Below, one piece after another: positions 37,333-52,460 of a DNA stretch of 64,000 nucleotides. The position numbers and the translations under genes are program-made. Under the pieces are notes generated by a model, which was not told the origin of the DNA, did not search any database, and saw only the letters and a program-made list of their open reading frames with translations. The DNA is from Halobacteriovorax marinus. Its GTDB lineage: Bacteria > Bdellovibrionota > Bacteriovoracia > Bacteriovoracales > Bacteriovoracaceae. The stretch covers positions 1 to 64,000 of the forward strand of contig MAAO01000011.1 in NCBI GenBank assembly GCA_002163155.1, in the 5' to 3' direction. Within the stretch, counting starts at the first letter, position 1. Each line of letters opens with the position of its first letter.

Positions 37333-37794
37333 TCAAGCGCTCTTTTTCAATTCATGATTCTCTACACTCAATTCTTTAATCCTGCCTCCCGTGTCCTTTA
37401 ACCTAGTCGCAAGCATACGGGAAAGATTGAGCATCAAAAGAGAAAACACCTTATTATTTTGTTCATAGAGACCAAAGAGATCGTCATACTCCAGCACCAG
37501 TACATCAGAAAAACTATCTATACAAATATCAGCATGGCGAATCTGATCCTTTAAGAGAACCATCTCACCAAAGAGATCACCTTTTCTAAGTTTGGCTATT
37601 TCTATGTCACCACTTTTAACAACAGCGGAGCCCGTTAAAATTAAAAATATCTCGTTACCCGTCTCACCTTTTCTAAAAACGTAATCACCGTCCTCTAAGG
37701 AGAGAACTCTACACTTTTCTACAATCTTCATGATCTCTTCATCATAGAGCTCGTAAAATAAAGGACAAGACTTAACAACCTGAATAATACTCAT
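37333..37794 (-). CDS. Cyclic-nucleotide-binding domain protein of the motor operon
   Basis: A 153-residue stand-alone cNMP-binding domain. The beta roll has DYVFRKGETGNEIFLILTG and the phosphate-binding cassette GEMVLLKDQIRHADI, which retains the conserved Gly-Glu and Arg. A C-terminal helix follows (SLLMLNLSRMLATRLKDTGG). There is no DNA-binding domain. It is third in an operon, 7 bp after the MotA-like gene, with AGGTG as ribosome site. It may let cAMP or cGMP gate the motor or report on it (inference). Confidence 0.85.
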   Translation of the reverse strand: MSIIQVVKSCPLFYELYDEEIMKIVEKCRVLSLEDGDYVFRKGETGNEIFLILTGSAVVKSGDIEIAKLRKGDLFGEMVLLKDQIRHADICIDSFSDVLVLEYDDLFGLYEQNNKVFSLLMLNLSRMLATRLKDTGGRIKELSVENHELKKSA

Positions 37795-37801
37795 TTCACA
37801 C

Positions 37802-38719
37802 CTAGCTTGCTTTCTTTATTTCTTTTTCATTAAGAGCTAATCTATTAACTCGAACCTCTTCTAACAATTCTTCCATGACCTTTCGAATCATAGGAAGTTC
37901 TTTTTCAGCACTAGATTTATCTCTCTCAGCATGTAAGTGGTACCAAAGAGTTTGCAGAACAACTTCCACTTTTTCGAAAGTATTTTCCCTTGTGATTTCT
38001 ATGGGAGAAACTGTGTTCAAAGTGGTTAAAAGAATAGAAAAGAAAATACCTGCAATAGAAGTTTTCATGGCAAAGGTCACATTCACAACGAATTGTGATA
38101 ACGTCTTTCCCGATTCTTCAAGATTCGCAAAGTCCATTTTGGCAATTTCAGGCAAGGCCATGGAAATCCCAATGAAAGTCCCAAACACTCCTAGAATAAT
38201 AAACATTGTAGGTAATACATCTAAGACTCTGGTCACTCCATCAATTGGAATACGATTAAAGAGTTTCGACCAATTGTCATCCTCACTCATCACTCGCTCA
38301 GTAAGCTGAGAAAAGTCTGGCTGAACATGAGAAGTAAAGATTCCAGCTTCACTTTGAATATTGGCGATTAAACCGTGCTTACTCCCAACGTACTCTTTTA
38401 GTGTAAGACCAACCATACGATCATCAGTTGTCTCGTTTGAGCTCTTCGAAAAGCCCTTTCTTAAGTTTCTCTCAGGTAGTTTTTGATTCACTCGTCCTAG
38501 AATGTTATTTAAAGAATCAGAGACATTTTCGATACGTGCCCCCTTTTCTTTATCTGATGAAAGAGTGGAGGCCAGCTCTCTGGTGAAATGAGAGAAGTAA
38601 GCTTCATCTCTTTTACTGTGGTTGTAGGACATCCATCTAAGTGAGAGTGCAATAGCGACAACTACCAACATAACCTCAATTAAATATTGACCAAAAAATA
38701 CAAGGATTAATTCAATCAT
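37802..38719 (-). CDS. MotA/TolQ/ExbB-like (ZorA-like) stator membrane protein
   Basis: A 305-residue inner-membrane protein. Transmembrane helix 1 is at residues 3-28. A cytoplasmic helical region of about 130 residues follows. Then come two helices with the family pattern VLPTMFIILGVFGTFIGIS and FAMKTSIAGIFFSILLTTL. The order matches MotA/TolQ/ExbB subunits of ion-driven motors, and ZorA of the Zorya defence system. Its start overlaps the stop of the MotB-like gene by four bases, so the two are made together. ZorA's very long cytoplasmic tail is absent here; in this system the coiled coil is on the partner. Confidence 0.85.
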   Translation of the reverse strand: MIELILVFFGQYLIEVMLVVVAIALSLRWMSYNHSKRDEAYFSHFTRELASTLSSDKEKGARIENVSDSLNNILGRVNQKLPERNLRKGFSKSSNETTDDRMVGLTLKEYVGSKHGLIANIQSEAGIFTSHVQPDFSQLTERVMSEDDNWSKLFNRIPIDGVTRVLDVLPTMFIILGVFGTFIGISMALPEIAKMDFANLEESGKTLSQFVVNVTFAMKTSIAGIFFSILLTTLNTVSPIEITRENTFEKVEVVLQTLWYHLHAERDKSSAEKELPMIRKVMEELLEEVRVNRLALNEKEIKKAS

Positions 38720-41700
38720 AGTCCACCTTCTTGAAAATTTAATATCTTTTCTAAAACTTTAGGATTATCTTTTAAGGTAAAGCTTAATTCAACTCGCTGA
38801 CTAAGATCACAACTATAGTTTCCACAGTCTTGATCTGTATTCCCCTCTCTGATGGAGGCAATACTTCTTCCAGCAGGTCTCACTGGCATCATGTATCCAT
38901 GGCCAATTGAGCGGGTAATTTTTCTCATGTGCATTTTATTTTTAAATTCTTTTGTTTTTCTACTGTAAATAAAATTACTGATGGCGGTAGCACGCCTCGC
39001 TGATAAATTAAGGTTATAATTATAGGCCTCGGGATCATTCTTAAGTGGGTCAGAGTACTTCTTCATAAAACTTGGAGAAGAATGTCCCTCAACATTGAAA
39101 CTTGAGATTTTCTCTTTAATTTTTTCATCCCCAAAGAGAACTTCTGAATAAAGAGGAATAATTTGCGAGAGTTTCTCTTTGGCAACTTTACTCAATTTAG
39201 AACTATTCGTTTCAAAGAGTAAGTTCTTGTCCATTAATAGAGTCACAGTTCCAGTTTTTGGATCTACCATGGCCCTTACATTAGCTTCTTTGAATTTCTT
39301 TGATAATTTCTTAGCGATATTGGCCCTAAGATTCTTCTTCTCATCTTTAACCTTTTCACCAATGAGAACTATTCTATTCTTTAAATCTTTATTTTGTAAT
39401 TCTTGTTTGTCTTTTATAGTTACACAATTAGTTCTTGCGACTTTCTCTTCACTTAAACTCTTATTTAAAATACTTTGATCACTCTGACAGCCTTGAAAAG
39501 AATTACCTAGAGATGCGACTTGGTTGCTTAGACCATTATTCCTCTCTCTTTCGTTCTCTAAGACCTTGTGACTAGAAGCTAATTGATTATTCTTATTTTC
39601 AAGTTCATTATCTAATTTTCTTATTTCACCATCAGAATAGATCACTCGCTGAGTTGCATCGATGATGTCCTTCTCTAATTTACCCAATTTATTATTGGCC
39701 TTATTTAAGTTGTAACTAAGGCCACCATTTTGCCCCAATAAGTCTCCAATCTTTGCATTAGCAAGGCCTAGTTTATCAGAGAGACCTTGTTTCTCTCCGG
39801 CCATTCCTTTTAACTTTCCATCGAGTTTACCAATTTGATCCTTAAGACCACCATTCTCGCCCTGAAGTTTCCCAACTTTTCCATTAGCTAGACCTAGCTT
39901 ATCGGAGAGACCTTTGTTCTTTCCGGCCATGCCTTTGAGCTTACCGTCTAGATTTCCGATTTTGTCTTTTAGTCCACCGTTTTCACCCAATAGCTTTCCA
40001 ACTTTACCATTAGCTAATCCAAGCTTATCAGAGAGGCCCTTATTCTTTCCGGCCATGCCTTTGAGTTTACCGTCGAGTTTTCCGATTTTGTCCTTAAGGC
40101 CTCCATTCTCACCTAGGAGACTTCCTATCTTACTATCGGCCGATCCTAATTTATCAGAGAGACCTTGGTTTTTTCCGGCCATACCTTTTAGTTTGCCGTC
40201 CAGTTTGCCTATTTTATCTTTAAGCCCACCGTTTTCACCCTGGAGTTTTCCTACTTTACTATCTGCCTGTCCCAGTTTGTCAGAGAGGCCCTTGTTCTTA
40301 GCAGTCATGCCCTTGAGTTTTCCGTCTAGCTTTCCAATCTTGTCTTTCAAACCACCATTTTCCCCCTGAAGGTTTCCTACTTTACTATCAGCTTGAGCCA
40401 GCTTAGCAGAGAGTCCCTGATTCTTAGAGGCCATACCTGTTAAGTTTCCATCGAGTTTACCTATGGCATCTTTAAGGCCACCATTCTCCTTCATAAGTCT
40501 TTTGATTTCACTATTTGAGTTTTGCAGCTGTGAGACTCTCTTAGCCTGAAGAGACTTTAGCTCACCAATTTTAGAATTATGCTCATTAGTCATTTTTTGT
40601 ACTTCATTTTTCGAATCTGAAGTTACTTTGGCAAGAGCTTGCCCCTGCTCTTTTTGAAGTTTTGCAATAGTACCGGATTGTGTGGTCTTAAGATTTTTAA
40701 TTACACTATCTTGCCCTGCTATTGCACTTTGTTGCTGTTTTTTTAGATCTTCTATAATTTTCTTAAATTTCTTATTCTGAATACTAAGCTCTTGCTGTTT
40801 AGCTAAGGCCTGTGACTTAACTAAATTATCCGATTCTAATTTTACTTGGGCCACTTGCCTCTTCGCAATTTGAATCTGCTTAGAACTCTCTTTTTGGATC
40901 TCCTGAACCATTCTTTCAGTCTGTTGTGACTTTTTCGCTGAAACCTTCTGGGCTTCACTCATGATATGTTTGTGTTCAATATTATTTTGCTTTATTTGGT
41001 TTTCATACTTCGCAGACTGTTCCTGATTTCTTACCTTTGCAACTTGTTCAGATTTCATCATAGCAAGTTGAACTGACTTAAGTTTTTCACTTGAAACACT
41101 TTGATTTTGTTTTAATTGACTTAAGTATTGTTGTTTTTGATCCTTTATATTTTTTACTTGCCTTGCTTCTAAGTTGATTTGTTCTTTTTTCATTTTCTTA
41201 ATTTCATTTTCTCTAACTAGAATTTCTTCTTTCTTTTCTTGTTTTAGGTTGGCCATCTCAACTTTAAGTTGTTTTTCAATTTTTTTACTATTCTGCTCTT
41301 CTTTCTTTAAGGCCGCTTCAAACTTTATGATTTCTTTTCTCTTCCCTTCGATATCACTATTCACCTTGGCAATCTCTTGAATTTTACTTTCTAGATTTGC
41401 ATCCTTATTCTTTATATCTTTCTTTAGCTGATCATTTTTAGATGATTTAATTGCTAAGTCTCTTTTCTTCTTCTGTAGGTTATCTCTTACCTTAGCTAGA
41501 ATGGCCTCTTTCTTGGCCTGCTCCTTAACCATCTCTTCCATAACTTCTCTGTTATTTTCTAATCCCTTTACCAACTGATTTAATTCGATAACCTTACTAT
41601 TTATAATATTTTTAAACTCACCTACTTTGTTAATAGACTTCTCTATCTTCTCAACTCTCTTCTGAGCTTCTAATTGAGCTTTCTTTGGAATAGAACCTTC

Positions 41701-41877
41701 AAGTTCTTGTTCATGGGATTTCTTCTCTGCAATTTTCTCCATGGTAGTAACGCCAACTTTAATCATCGCAAAGACAAACATTGTTAAGAAAATAATTGCA
41801 ACAGTAGTAAACAAATCGGAATAAGCACTCCAGACTTGTCCATCATCACTCTTCTTCTTTTTCTTCCTTCTTGCCAT
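38716..41877 (-). CDS. Giant MotB/ZorB-like protein: proton-path helix, coiled coil, 42-residue repeats, OmpA domain
   Basis: 1053 residues from ATG 41877. GGAG lies six bases upstream; the GTG at 41889 has no such support. A Lys-rich cytoplasmic start precedes a single membrane helix with VWSAYSDLFTTVAIIFLTMF; Asp21 lies where MotB/ZorB carry the ion-binding Asp. About 410 residues of Lys/Gln/Glu-rich coiled coil follow. Next come six near-identical 42-residue repeats (about residues 464-715) with core ENGGLKDKIGKLDGKLKGM and GLSDKLGLANGKVGKL, then more coil. A C-terminal OmpA/MotB peptidoglycan-binding domain (about 890-1053) shows FNVEGHSSPSF and LSARRATAISNFIY. First gene of an operon with a MotA-like and a cNMP-binding protein. 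MotB and ZorB are usually under 350 residues. Confidence 0.85.
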   Translation of the reverse strand: MARRKKKKKSDDGQVWSAYSDLFTTVAIIFLTMFVFAMIKVGVTTMEKIAEKKSHEQELEGSIPKKAQLEAQKRVEKIEKSINKVGEFKNIINSKVIELNQLVKGLENNREVMEEMVKEQAKKEAILAKVRDNLQKKKRDLAIKSSKNDQLKKDIKNKDANLESKIQEIAKVNSDIEGKRKEIIKFEAALKKEEQNSKKIEKQLKVEMANLKQEKKEEILVRENEIKKMKKEQINLEARQVKNIKDQKQQYLSQLKQNQSVSSEKLKSVQLAMMKSEQVAKVRNQEQSAKYENQIKQNNIEHKHIMSEAQKVSAKKSQQTERMVQEIQKESSKQIQIAKRQVAQVKLESDNLVKSQALAKQQELSIQNKKFKKIIEDLKKQQQSAIAGQDSVIKNLKTTQSGTIAKLQKEQGQALAKVTSDSKNEVQKMTNEHNSKIGELKSLQAKRVSQLQNSNSEIKRLMKENGGLKDAIGKLDGNLTGMASKNQGLSAKLAQADSKVGNLQGENGGLKDKIGKLDGKLKGMTAKNKGLSDKLGQADSKVGKLQGENGGLKDKIGKLDGKLKGMAGKNQGLSDKLGSADSKIGSLLGENGGLKDKIGKLDGKLKGMAGKNKGLSDKLGLANGKVGKLLGENGGLKDKIGNLDGKLKGMAGKNKGLSDKLGLANGKVGKLQGENGGLKDQIGKLDGKLKGMAGEKQGLSDKLGLANAKIGDLLGQNGGLSYNLNKANNKLGKLEKDIIDATQRVIYSDGEIRKLDNELENKNNQLASSHKVLENERERNNGLSNQVASLGNSFQGCQSDQSILNKSLSEEKVARTNCVTIKDKQELQNKDLKNRIVLIGEKVKDEKKNLRANIAKKLSKKFKEANVRAMVDPKTGTVTLLMDKNLLFETNSSKLSKVAKEKLSQIIPLYSEVLFGDEKIKEKISSFNVEGHSSPSFMKKYSDPLKNDPEAYNYNLNLSARRATAISNFIYSRKTKEFKNKMHMRKITRSIGHGYMMPVRPAGRSIASIREGNTDQDCGNYSCDLSQRVELSFTLKDNPKVLEKILNFQEGGL
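39733..40488 (-). repeat. Six tandem 126-bp repeats inside the MotB-like gene
   Basis: Six copies of 42 codons, with a seventh diverged partial copy just to the left (from 39732). Forty-two residues equal six heptads. The protein copies are nearly identical while many third codon positions differ between copies, so the repeats look old and held by protein-level selection rather than recently duplicated. Confidence 0.9.
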
Positions 41878-41942
41878 AGAGTACTCCACTTACACCAAGT
41901 AAGATTTTGTCGATTACCATTATCTGCCATATCAGTGTTCGA

Positions 41943-51167: not shown

Positions 51168-52460
51168 ATGATTCACTTACACAAAGCTAAATTGACCACA
51201 AATGAACTACTCTGGAATGGATTAATATTCTTGGCGGTATTCTTTACGGCAATTGAAGCTCCTTTTAGTTTTACCTACAGAACCAGCATCCAAAATTGGC
51301 AACTTGTTTCAGATTTCATGATCTCTTCAATATTTGTCATCGATATTATCTATCAATTTAGAGAGAGATATTTCAAAAGAGCTTATCAAACTAAAAATGG
51401 TAATTCCGGTTACTGGTGGTCGATGATTTTCGTCGATATGCTGGCCTCAATTCCTTTTGATGTGATCACTTATAGTTTTGATCTTCACGGTTACCAAATC
51501 TTCGCCCTCTTTAGAATGTTGAGACTTGTTAGAGTTGCTAGACTTTACGCCTTAATGAGTAATCTCGCACTTGTCCCAAAAACTCTTAGAGTCTCCATGT
51601 TATTCTGTGTTTCAATTATGGTTATTCACTGGATTGCATGTGGATGGTCACTGATTTATCCAACACTAGAGACAAATATAACTACTCACTATATTAAATC
51701 ACTCTACTGGGCCATTACCACTCTTACGACCATTGGTTACGGTGATATTACCCCAGACACAAACCTTGGAAGAATCTACACCATGCCTATTATGATCTTA
51801 GGTGTTGGTATTTACGGTTTTGTTATTGCCAATGTCACGAGACTCTTCACAACTGCTGATAGACATAAAGAACTATCAAAACAACGTCTTGGTGATGTGG
51901 CCAATTATATGAAATATTATAAAATTCCTGAAAGACTTCAAGGTCAGGTTTTTGGTTACTATAACCATCTCATCAATAAGAGATTTACAGAAAATGATAG
52001 CTCCATCATTTCTGATCTGCCCATGGCACTTCAAAATGAATTACAAACTTATATGAATATGAAATTGATTAGAACGGTCCCCGTCTTTAAGAATTGTTCC
52101 CATTCTTGCTTAAAAGATGTTTCCGCCGCTCTTGTGCAAAAGTCCTATTCTCCCGGACAAAATGTGATACGCATCGGAGAAATTGGTGACGAGATGTTCA
52201 TGATTGGACATGGAACTGTAGAAGTCATCTTTAAAGACGGAACAGTTGTCGCCTCTCTACATGAAGGACAAATCTTTGGGGAAGCAGCACTTTTACGTGA
52301 AACAACAAGAAATGCTGATGTGAGAGCGCAGACCTATTGTGATCTCTACATTCTTAAGAAAGCAGACTTCTTAGAAATTATTGAGAAGCACCCAGATCTT
52401 CTTGATAGTATGGAGAAAGTAACTTCTAGAAGAGTCACAGACAGAAGAAGAGCTGCTTAG
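51168..52460 (+). CDS. Cyclic-nucleotide-gated, voltage-sensor-type potassium channel
   Basis: A 430-residue six-helix channel. S1-S3 occupy the first 110 residues. S4 is FRMLRLVRVARL with Arg at every third position (116, 119, 122, 125). The pore has the K+ filter TTIGYGD (187-193). S6 follows, then a linker and a cNMP-binding domain (about 303-420) with GDEMFMIGHG and the cassette FGEAALLRETTRNADV. This is the bacterial CNG/HCN-like layout of SthK or MloK-type channels. With the cNMP protein of the motor operon it makes two cyclic-nucleotide-responsive systems in 15 kb. Confidence 0.92.
   Translation: MIHLHKAKLTTNELLWNGLIFLAVFFTAIEAPFSFTYRTSIQNWQLVSDFMISSIFVIDIIYQFRERYFKRAYQTKNGNSGYWWSMIFVDMLASIPFDVITYSFDLHGYQIFALFRMLRLVRVARLYALMSNLALVPKTLRVSMLFCVSIMVIHWIACGWSLIYPTLETNITTHYIKSLYWAITTLTTIGYGDITPDTNLGRIYTMPIMILGVGIYGFVIANVTRLFTTADRHKELSKQRLGDVANYMKYYKIPERLQGQVFGYYNHLINKRFTENDSSIISDLPMALQNELQTYMNMKLIRTVPVFKNCSHSCLKDVSAALVQKSYSPGQNVIRIGEIGDEMFMIGHGTVEVIFKDGTVVASLHEGQIFGEAALLRETTRNADVRAQTYCDLYILKKADFLEIIEKHPDLLDSMEKVTSRRVTDRRRAA

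Follow-up and report, generated by a model that had tools for sequence, protein, structure and literature searches.

ORF analysis of the 64-kb stretch of DNA studied here, which we refer to as the window, placed a putative motor operon of three minus-strand genes at 37333-41889, in the order B-A-cNMP. The genes, and the features within them that are discussed below, are the following.

38716..41877, minus strand: B subunit, MotB/ZorB-like (ORF; conserved N-terminal transmembrane helix with its Asp, and C-terminal OmpA fold)
41755..41817, minus strand: channel Asp25 (YSDLF, numbered from the GTG start) and single transmembrane (TM) helix of B (sequence)
39340..41685, minus strand: proline-free coiled-coil region of B, residues 69-850 (3.5-residue periodicity)
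39756..40485, minus strand: about six 126-bp / 42-aa (six-heptad) repeats within the coil of B (Tandem Repeats Finder; heptad pattern)
38716..39363, minus strand: C-terminal OmpA-like peptidoglycan-binding domain of B (AlphaFold model, fold comparison and PADLOC ZorB1 profile)
37802..38719, minus strand: A subunit, ZorA/TolQ/ExbB-like, three TM helices, 305 aa (ORF, profiles, fold)
38057..38179, minus strand: GTFxG (Thr181) in TM2 and Ser221 in TM3 of A, invariant in 70 A proteins
37333..37794, minus strand: stand-alone cyclic-nucleotide-binding (cNMP) protein, 153 aa (Pfam cNMP_binding)
37531..37572, minus strand: phosphate-binding cassette of the cNMP protein, FGEMVLLKDQIRHA

The B protein has 1053 aa when read from the ATG at 41877 and 1057 aa from the GTG at 41889. 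To judge from the sequence the ATG is the more likely start, since the GTG sits inside a GTGGAG Shine-Dalgarno-like stretch directly before it and the closest homologue begins with MARKHKKKK. B and A overlap by 4 nt (ATGA), whereas 7 nt separate A from the cNMP gene. A preliminary description of this DNA had reported B, A and cNMP genes at this place, as we find them, and had called them overlapping, which is correct for the first pair and not for the second. Downstream of the operon there are a DNA methylase (the next gene) and an RND pump, upstream there are small exported proteins, and among the neighbours checked around the window there was no sign of a defence island. A second cNMP receptor is located 10 kb away, a cyclic-nucleotide-gated ion channel of 430 aa (51168-52460, plus strand; Ion_trans and cNMP_binding). 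The set of three genes recurs in 32 loci, against 15 cNMP domains in the 4.5 Mb of the window's genome, and chance is therefore excluded as its origin.

Sampling 241 genomes of the Bdellovibrionota, we found relatives of A in 113, and the relatives picked up by one scan of genome contigs all belonged to this phylum. We retrieved about 80 loci with their flanks, some 75 of which were inspected for effectors by gene size and order. They include a clade with the B-A-cNMP arrangement (type I, 33 loci) and a sister clade (type II) in which the third gene codes for an FHA-coiled-coil-TM protein. In the family loci inspected across the phylum, B precedes A, and the gene after A codes for a cNMP protein, an FHA protein or something else that is not an effector. 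Type I is patchy even in the window's genus (two of five genomes), and the operon flanks differ between two species of one genus. The flanks read as ordinary chromosomal genes (for example, an apparent ribosomal protein S1 in L083). A mobile or phage-borne element was rejected, as no relatives were found in viral contigs (IMG/VR) or plasmids.

The B subunit starts with a Lys/Arg-rich, cytoplasmic N-terminus ahead of its single TM helix. The Asp of YSDLF, described at the outset as of MotB type in a one-helix protein, is indeed conserved: in the alignment, every B protein of full length (about 500-1758 aa, each with an OmpA domain) has it within SD[LMV]F or a near match to this motif. Between the two ends, residues 45 to 850 contain one proline (residue 68) and have a hydrophobic period of 3.50 residues. 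The long coiled coil first described is thus present, with about 780 proline-free residues instead of the some 840 claimed, and the heptad pattern suggests that it forms a parallel dimer. Its length is 328-1531 residues in type I and 268-476 in type II, and B proteins with A partners 76% identical differ in it by about 400 residues. The range within type I and the change between such close relatives led us to reject a ruler of fixed length. The longest B (L091, 8748-14024) has 1758 aa, about 1530 of them in the coil. Among gaps of at least five residues in B pairs, 149 of 352 were multiples of seven (42% versus 14% by chance), a count inflated by heptad-driven alignment and by the use of related, non-independent pairs; as far as alignments go, this agrees with selection for the coil register while the length drifts. 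Taking 0.15 nm per residue, some 780 residues in a straight coil would span about 116 nm, several times the depth of the periplasm. As even 300 coil residues exceed this depth, the arm has to extend sideways, following the wall, or fold back on itself.

At the C-terminus, B of the window scored 25.1 bits against Pfam OmpA, below the cut-off of 27.2, and 63 of 66 family members matched OmpA at an E of 0.01 or better. The AlphaFold model of this part (pLDDT 87) was closest to ZorB II (Z 19.5 over 193 residues), followed by ZorB I (16.3), MotB (about 14) and OmpA (about 13), and the PADLOC ZorB1 profile was matched at 8.5e-35. Both the OmpA domain that had been proposed for B and its ZorB-like character are borne out by these data. 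In the wall-binding motif N, LS and R are invariant in the family, while “TD” of the peptidoglycan motif, with its acidic residue, has given way to an S-P pair (GHSSP). Two Cys five residues apart (38809-38826; C180 and C185 of alignment A2) are invariant in 66 OmpA domains and may form a periplasmic disulphide.

In the AlphaFold model of the A subunit (pLDDT 90) the TM helices are residues 5-30, 159-193 and 200-237, the limits of TM1 having been set by eye inside the model's first helix. A cytoplasmic domain separates TM1 from TM2, and there is a short C-terminal helix. This matches the three-helix protein of MotA/TolQ type proposed before. A GxxGTFxG motif with Thr181, and Ser221, are invariant across 70 aligned A proteins, and by homology with the Ser/Thr ring of ZorA (PMC11890865) both residues are likely to line a polar ring facing the Asp of B.

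As to its relatives, A of the window reached 16.3 bits with Pfam MotA_ExbB (cut-off 22.9) and 35 bits with the ZorA model NF033915 (cut-off 100), and less with other ZorA models, all far below the curated cut-offs; as a reference, a true ZorA of the same phylum scored 751 bits on its PADLOC model. A PADLOC ZorA model was matched by 67 of the 70 A proteins, and an NCBIfam ZorA subfamily model likewise by 67. When a profile of the 70 was compared with PDB sequences, the sole meaningful matches were to ZorA (9e-9 to 2e-4), and the remaining ones were unrelated proteins with E of 0.02 or worse. By fold, ZorA I, ExbB and TolQ were found at a Z of about 11, which between helical proteins is weak support by itself, and PomA at 7.4. 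The two-TM motor subunit GldL was not among the listed sequence or fold matches, an absence that does not amount to exclusion. In a tree of the TM2-TM3 region, 72 A proteins formed one clade (SH-aLRT 99) apart from ZorA, TolQ, ExbB and MotA; with 110 columns and some long branches, the label pattern is strong and the deep branching moderate. The pair had been announced as a family of its own within the class of MotAB and ZorAB. The separate clade, and the scores of the window's A below the curated ZorA cut-offs, agree with this, and the profile search did not place the pair inside a characterised family. The class was right too, with the refinement that ZorA and ZorB in particular stand closest, not MotAB or TolQR.

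The third protein is a clear match to Pfam cNMP_binding (9.4e-15), with GE and R of the cassette kept in 30 of 30 aligned members. The match and the intact cassette uphold its description as a stand-alone cNMP-binding protein. Conservation of its gene with the other two had been set beforehand as a test, and among the 33 loci of type I the gene lies next to A in 32; in L088 it is inverted yet adjacent, and L107 is without it. As a partner, however, it is one of two main alternatives. The third gene of type II codes for a protein of 466-1440 aa with an N-terminal FHA domain and a long coiled coil; inspection by eye adds a TM segment, with the C-terminal part on the outer side. The FHA domain was recognised by Pfam in three clear type II cases tested; L057 gave nothing, and the motif is visible in most others. 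The FHA looks degenerate in the third genes of L047, L069, L120 and L121, where the phosphothreonine-binding GR / SRxH residues are missing. Single loci have either no third partner or a response-regulator receiver protein in this slot (L068, 3463-4002), a third kind of sensor module. No catalytic domain was found in the third proteins. The kind of third gene tracks the A tree, on which cNMP and FHA each need a single change. We place the third protein as a regulator because it has no catalytic domain, follows the phylogeny of A and is swapped for another sensing domain. The window's genome codes for two class III nucleotide cyclases.

To the family relationship, the conserved channel and wall-binding residues, the conserved operon and the swap of the third module, all of them observed, we add the stoichiometry, ion flow, gating and output that we infer for the A/B motor. 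A and B would together be a rotary motor of the Zorya branch, driven by ions and with a 5:2 stoichiometry: a pentamer of A in the inner membrane would surround a dimer of B, and the Asp of B would conduct the ion. Ions would pass this Asp against the Thr/Ser ring of A, as reported for ZorAB and MotAB (PMC11890865), and their flow would turn B against A or put it under strain. Meanwhile the OmpA domain, at the tip of the very long periplasmic coiled-coil dimer, would grip the peptidoglycan and hold the wall. The third protein would act as an interchangeable cytoplasmic sensor (cNMP here, FHA-coiled-coil-TM in the sister clade) that binds the cytoplasmic face of A and switches ion flow or rotation on and off. 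The output may be mechanical, work done on the wall or tension applied to it from a long distance, rather than attack on DNA, and envelope remodelling, shape and predator-prey contact are candidates for it. To this whole, an ion-driven, wall-anchored 5:2 motor gated by an exchangeable cytoplasmic sensor and acting on the envelope, we give a probability of about 0.5. That A and B are a motor is highly probable, gating by the third protein is evenly balanced, and a role in the envelope or in predation is a tentative proposal that falls somewhat short of even odds. The replaced acidic residue of the TD motif, the patchiness of type I within a genus and a straight coil several times longer than the periplasm is deep all count against the explanation.

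The closest system, Zorya, was compared through ZorAB of its types I and II (8qyd/8qyy, 8vvn, 8vvi; PMC11890865). The channel region and fold of A, the TM Asp of B, an OmpA domain closest to ZorB II and membership of the two-subunit ion-driven class are common to both. However, the gene order is reversed (B-A), a cNMP or FHA sensor stands in third place and ZorC, ZorD and ZorE are missing; A, with 305 aa, is without the long cytoplasmic tail of ZorA, and the long coil is on B instead, as the preliminary description had pointed out. The window's A does not reach the cut-off of a curated ZorA model and has no long ZorA tail, and the order zorA-zorB followed by zorC-zorD or zorE was not found in the family loci inspected. 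As controls we used three genuine Zorya-type loci of Bdellovibrionota (L144, L145 and L146), with a ZorA of 458-669 aa, a ZorB of about 250-330 aa and then a ZorC-like protein and ZorD (the ZorC position was unrecognised in L146). They look different from the family loci, and Zorya with its effectors was rejected; the absence of an adjacent effector, another point made at the outset, stands up against these controls.

An anti-phage system of Zorya type could nevertheless work in other ways, with AB sensing envelope damage by phage and the third protein signalling to an effector that is encoded elsewhere or unrecognised. The kinship of both subunits with ZorA and ZorB, the patchiness of type I in the genus, the different neighbours in two species of one genus and the methylase next to the operon in the window would all fit. 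On the other hand, none of the roughly 75 loci inspected had ZorC, ZorD or ZorE beside it, whereas the true Zorya loci of the phylum keep ZorA-B-C-D together; the third genes code for sensors that have no catalytic domain, the related loci checked do not have the methylase next to them, and in one genus 16 of 17 genomes carry type II. Ordinary chromosomal surroundings, the lack of an effector gene and of any match in plasmids or viral contigs make defence less likely than a role in gliding or invasion, and on the whole we consider it improbable.

Motility offers two further readings. A second, regulated flagellar stator might be expected from FliF being present in 213 of the 241 genomes, with most A-bearing genomes flagellated, and from B ending in an OmpA domain as MotB does. 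The family indeed shares with MotAB/PomAB the motor class and the OmpA-type wall anchor on B, but there MotA spans the membrane four times and carries a torque interface, and MotB is short. The family has no flagellar link. A is modelled with three TM helices, does not reach the MotA_ExbB cut-off, belongs to the TolQ/ZorA type and is far on the tree from the genome's own MotA (a very long branch), which is part of a separate MotAB (L010). Moreover, A is present and FliF absent in G109 and G188 (97% and 99% complete). We rejected the stator on these grounds and regard it as extremely improbable. The TolQR, ExbBD and AglRQS motors share the three-TM fold of A (Z about 11), but according to a survey of MotAB relatives (PMC12505986) they have short B subunits lacking an OmpA domain, which is not the case of B here. 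The same survey states the lack of this domain for non-flagellar B subunits in general and treats Zorya as a remote exception.

That the motor serves invasion or movement on surfaces, by gliding or by turning inside the prey while the long arm of B pushes on the wall, is unlikely too, although less so than defence. Motor and FHA bitopic protein together, as found in type II operons, recall the Agl-Glt machine of Myxococcus and Bdellovibrio with its GltG (PMC3169522), but no Glt proteins were recognised in the family, there are no short TolR-like subunits and A belongs to a different clade. Neither adhesin nor Glt genes were recognised beside the operon, and Agl-Glt loci are already present in Bdellovibrio (PMC3169522). 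The window's genome itself has, besides its MotAB, TolQR and AglR-like/Agl-type motors (L009 and L012).

The Bdellovibrionota are known for their predators. In a Bdellovibrio-like family, genus g70 has type II in 16 of its 17 genomes, among them the single-contig G073, which we take to be B. bacteriovorus HD100, and genus g40 has it in none of six, including G005, presumably the epibiotic B. exovorus JSS. This contrast hints at a link to prey invasion, a correlation with lifestyle that is confounded by ancestry and opposed by G008, which we read as the invasive H. marinus, type strain of the window's genus, and which has neither type.

Our search of open papers yielded no description of either operon, B-A-cNMP or B-A-FHA, and the regulated wall-anchored motor that we favour is probably a cell-envelope machine so far undescribed. 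The job is known for few of the ion-driven 5:2 motors, and the ZorAB-type motors that we found described are all defence devices. In the present family a core of Zorya type is kept and the DNA-attacking effectors are replaced by an exchangeable signalling protein, which can show what the motor itself does. More speculatively, and with less confidence than in the envelope role alone, this could be a widespread non-defence family of Zorya-type motors, gated by second messengers or phosphoproteins, with an arm longer than the periplasm is deep, that predators use to pull on or sense the wall; Zorya and a housekeeping envelope motor would then share an origin. YcgR controls flagellar stators in a c-di-GMP-dependent manner. 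The model proposed here resembles this control in having a small cytoplasmic second-messenger-binding protein that would regulate a stator, and differs in that the domain is CNB, not PilZ. As the type II form occurs in G073, assumed to be HD100, the question is testable in a predator that is amenable to genetics. The type II locus of G073, interpolated from the position of dnaK (Bd1298), would lie near Bd1165-1172 and may include Bd1167, which has been called coiled-coil and crescentin-like and down-regulated on predation (PMC2797640).

Finally, the window's genome contains a second, diverged B-A-cNMP operon (L043, 8083-11135 of G000 contig C9) with an A 40% identical, indicating that two paralogous motors coexist. 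A further odd pair, MotA-like and MotB-like (248 and 291 aa), was found in the same genome (L013, in the region of G000 C1:1064363).
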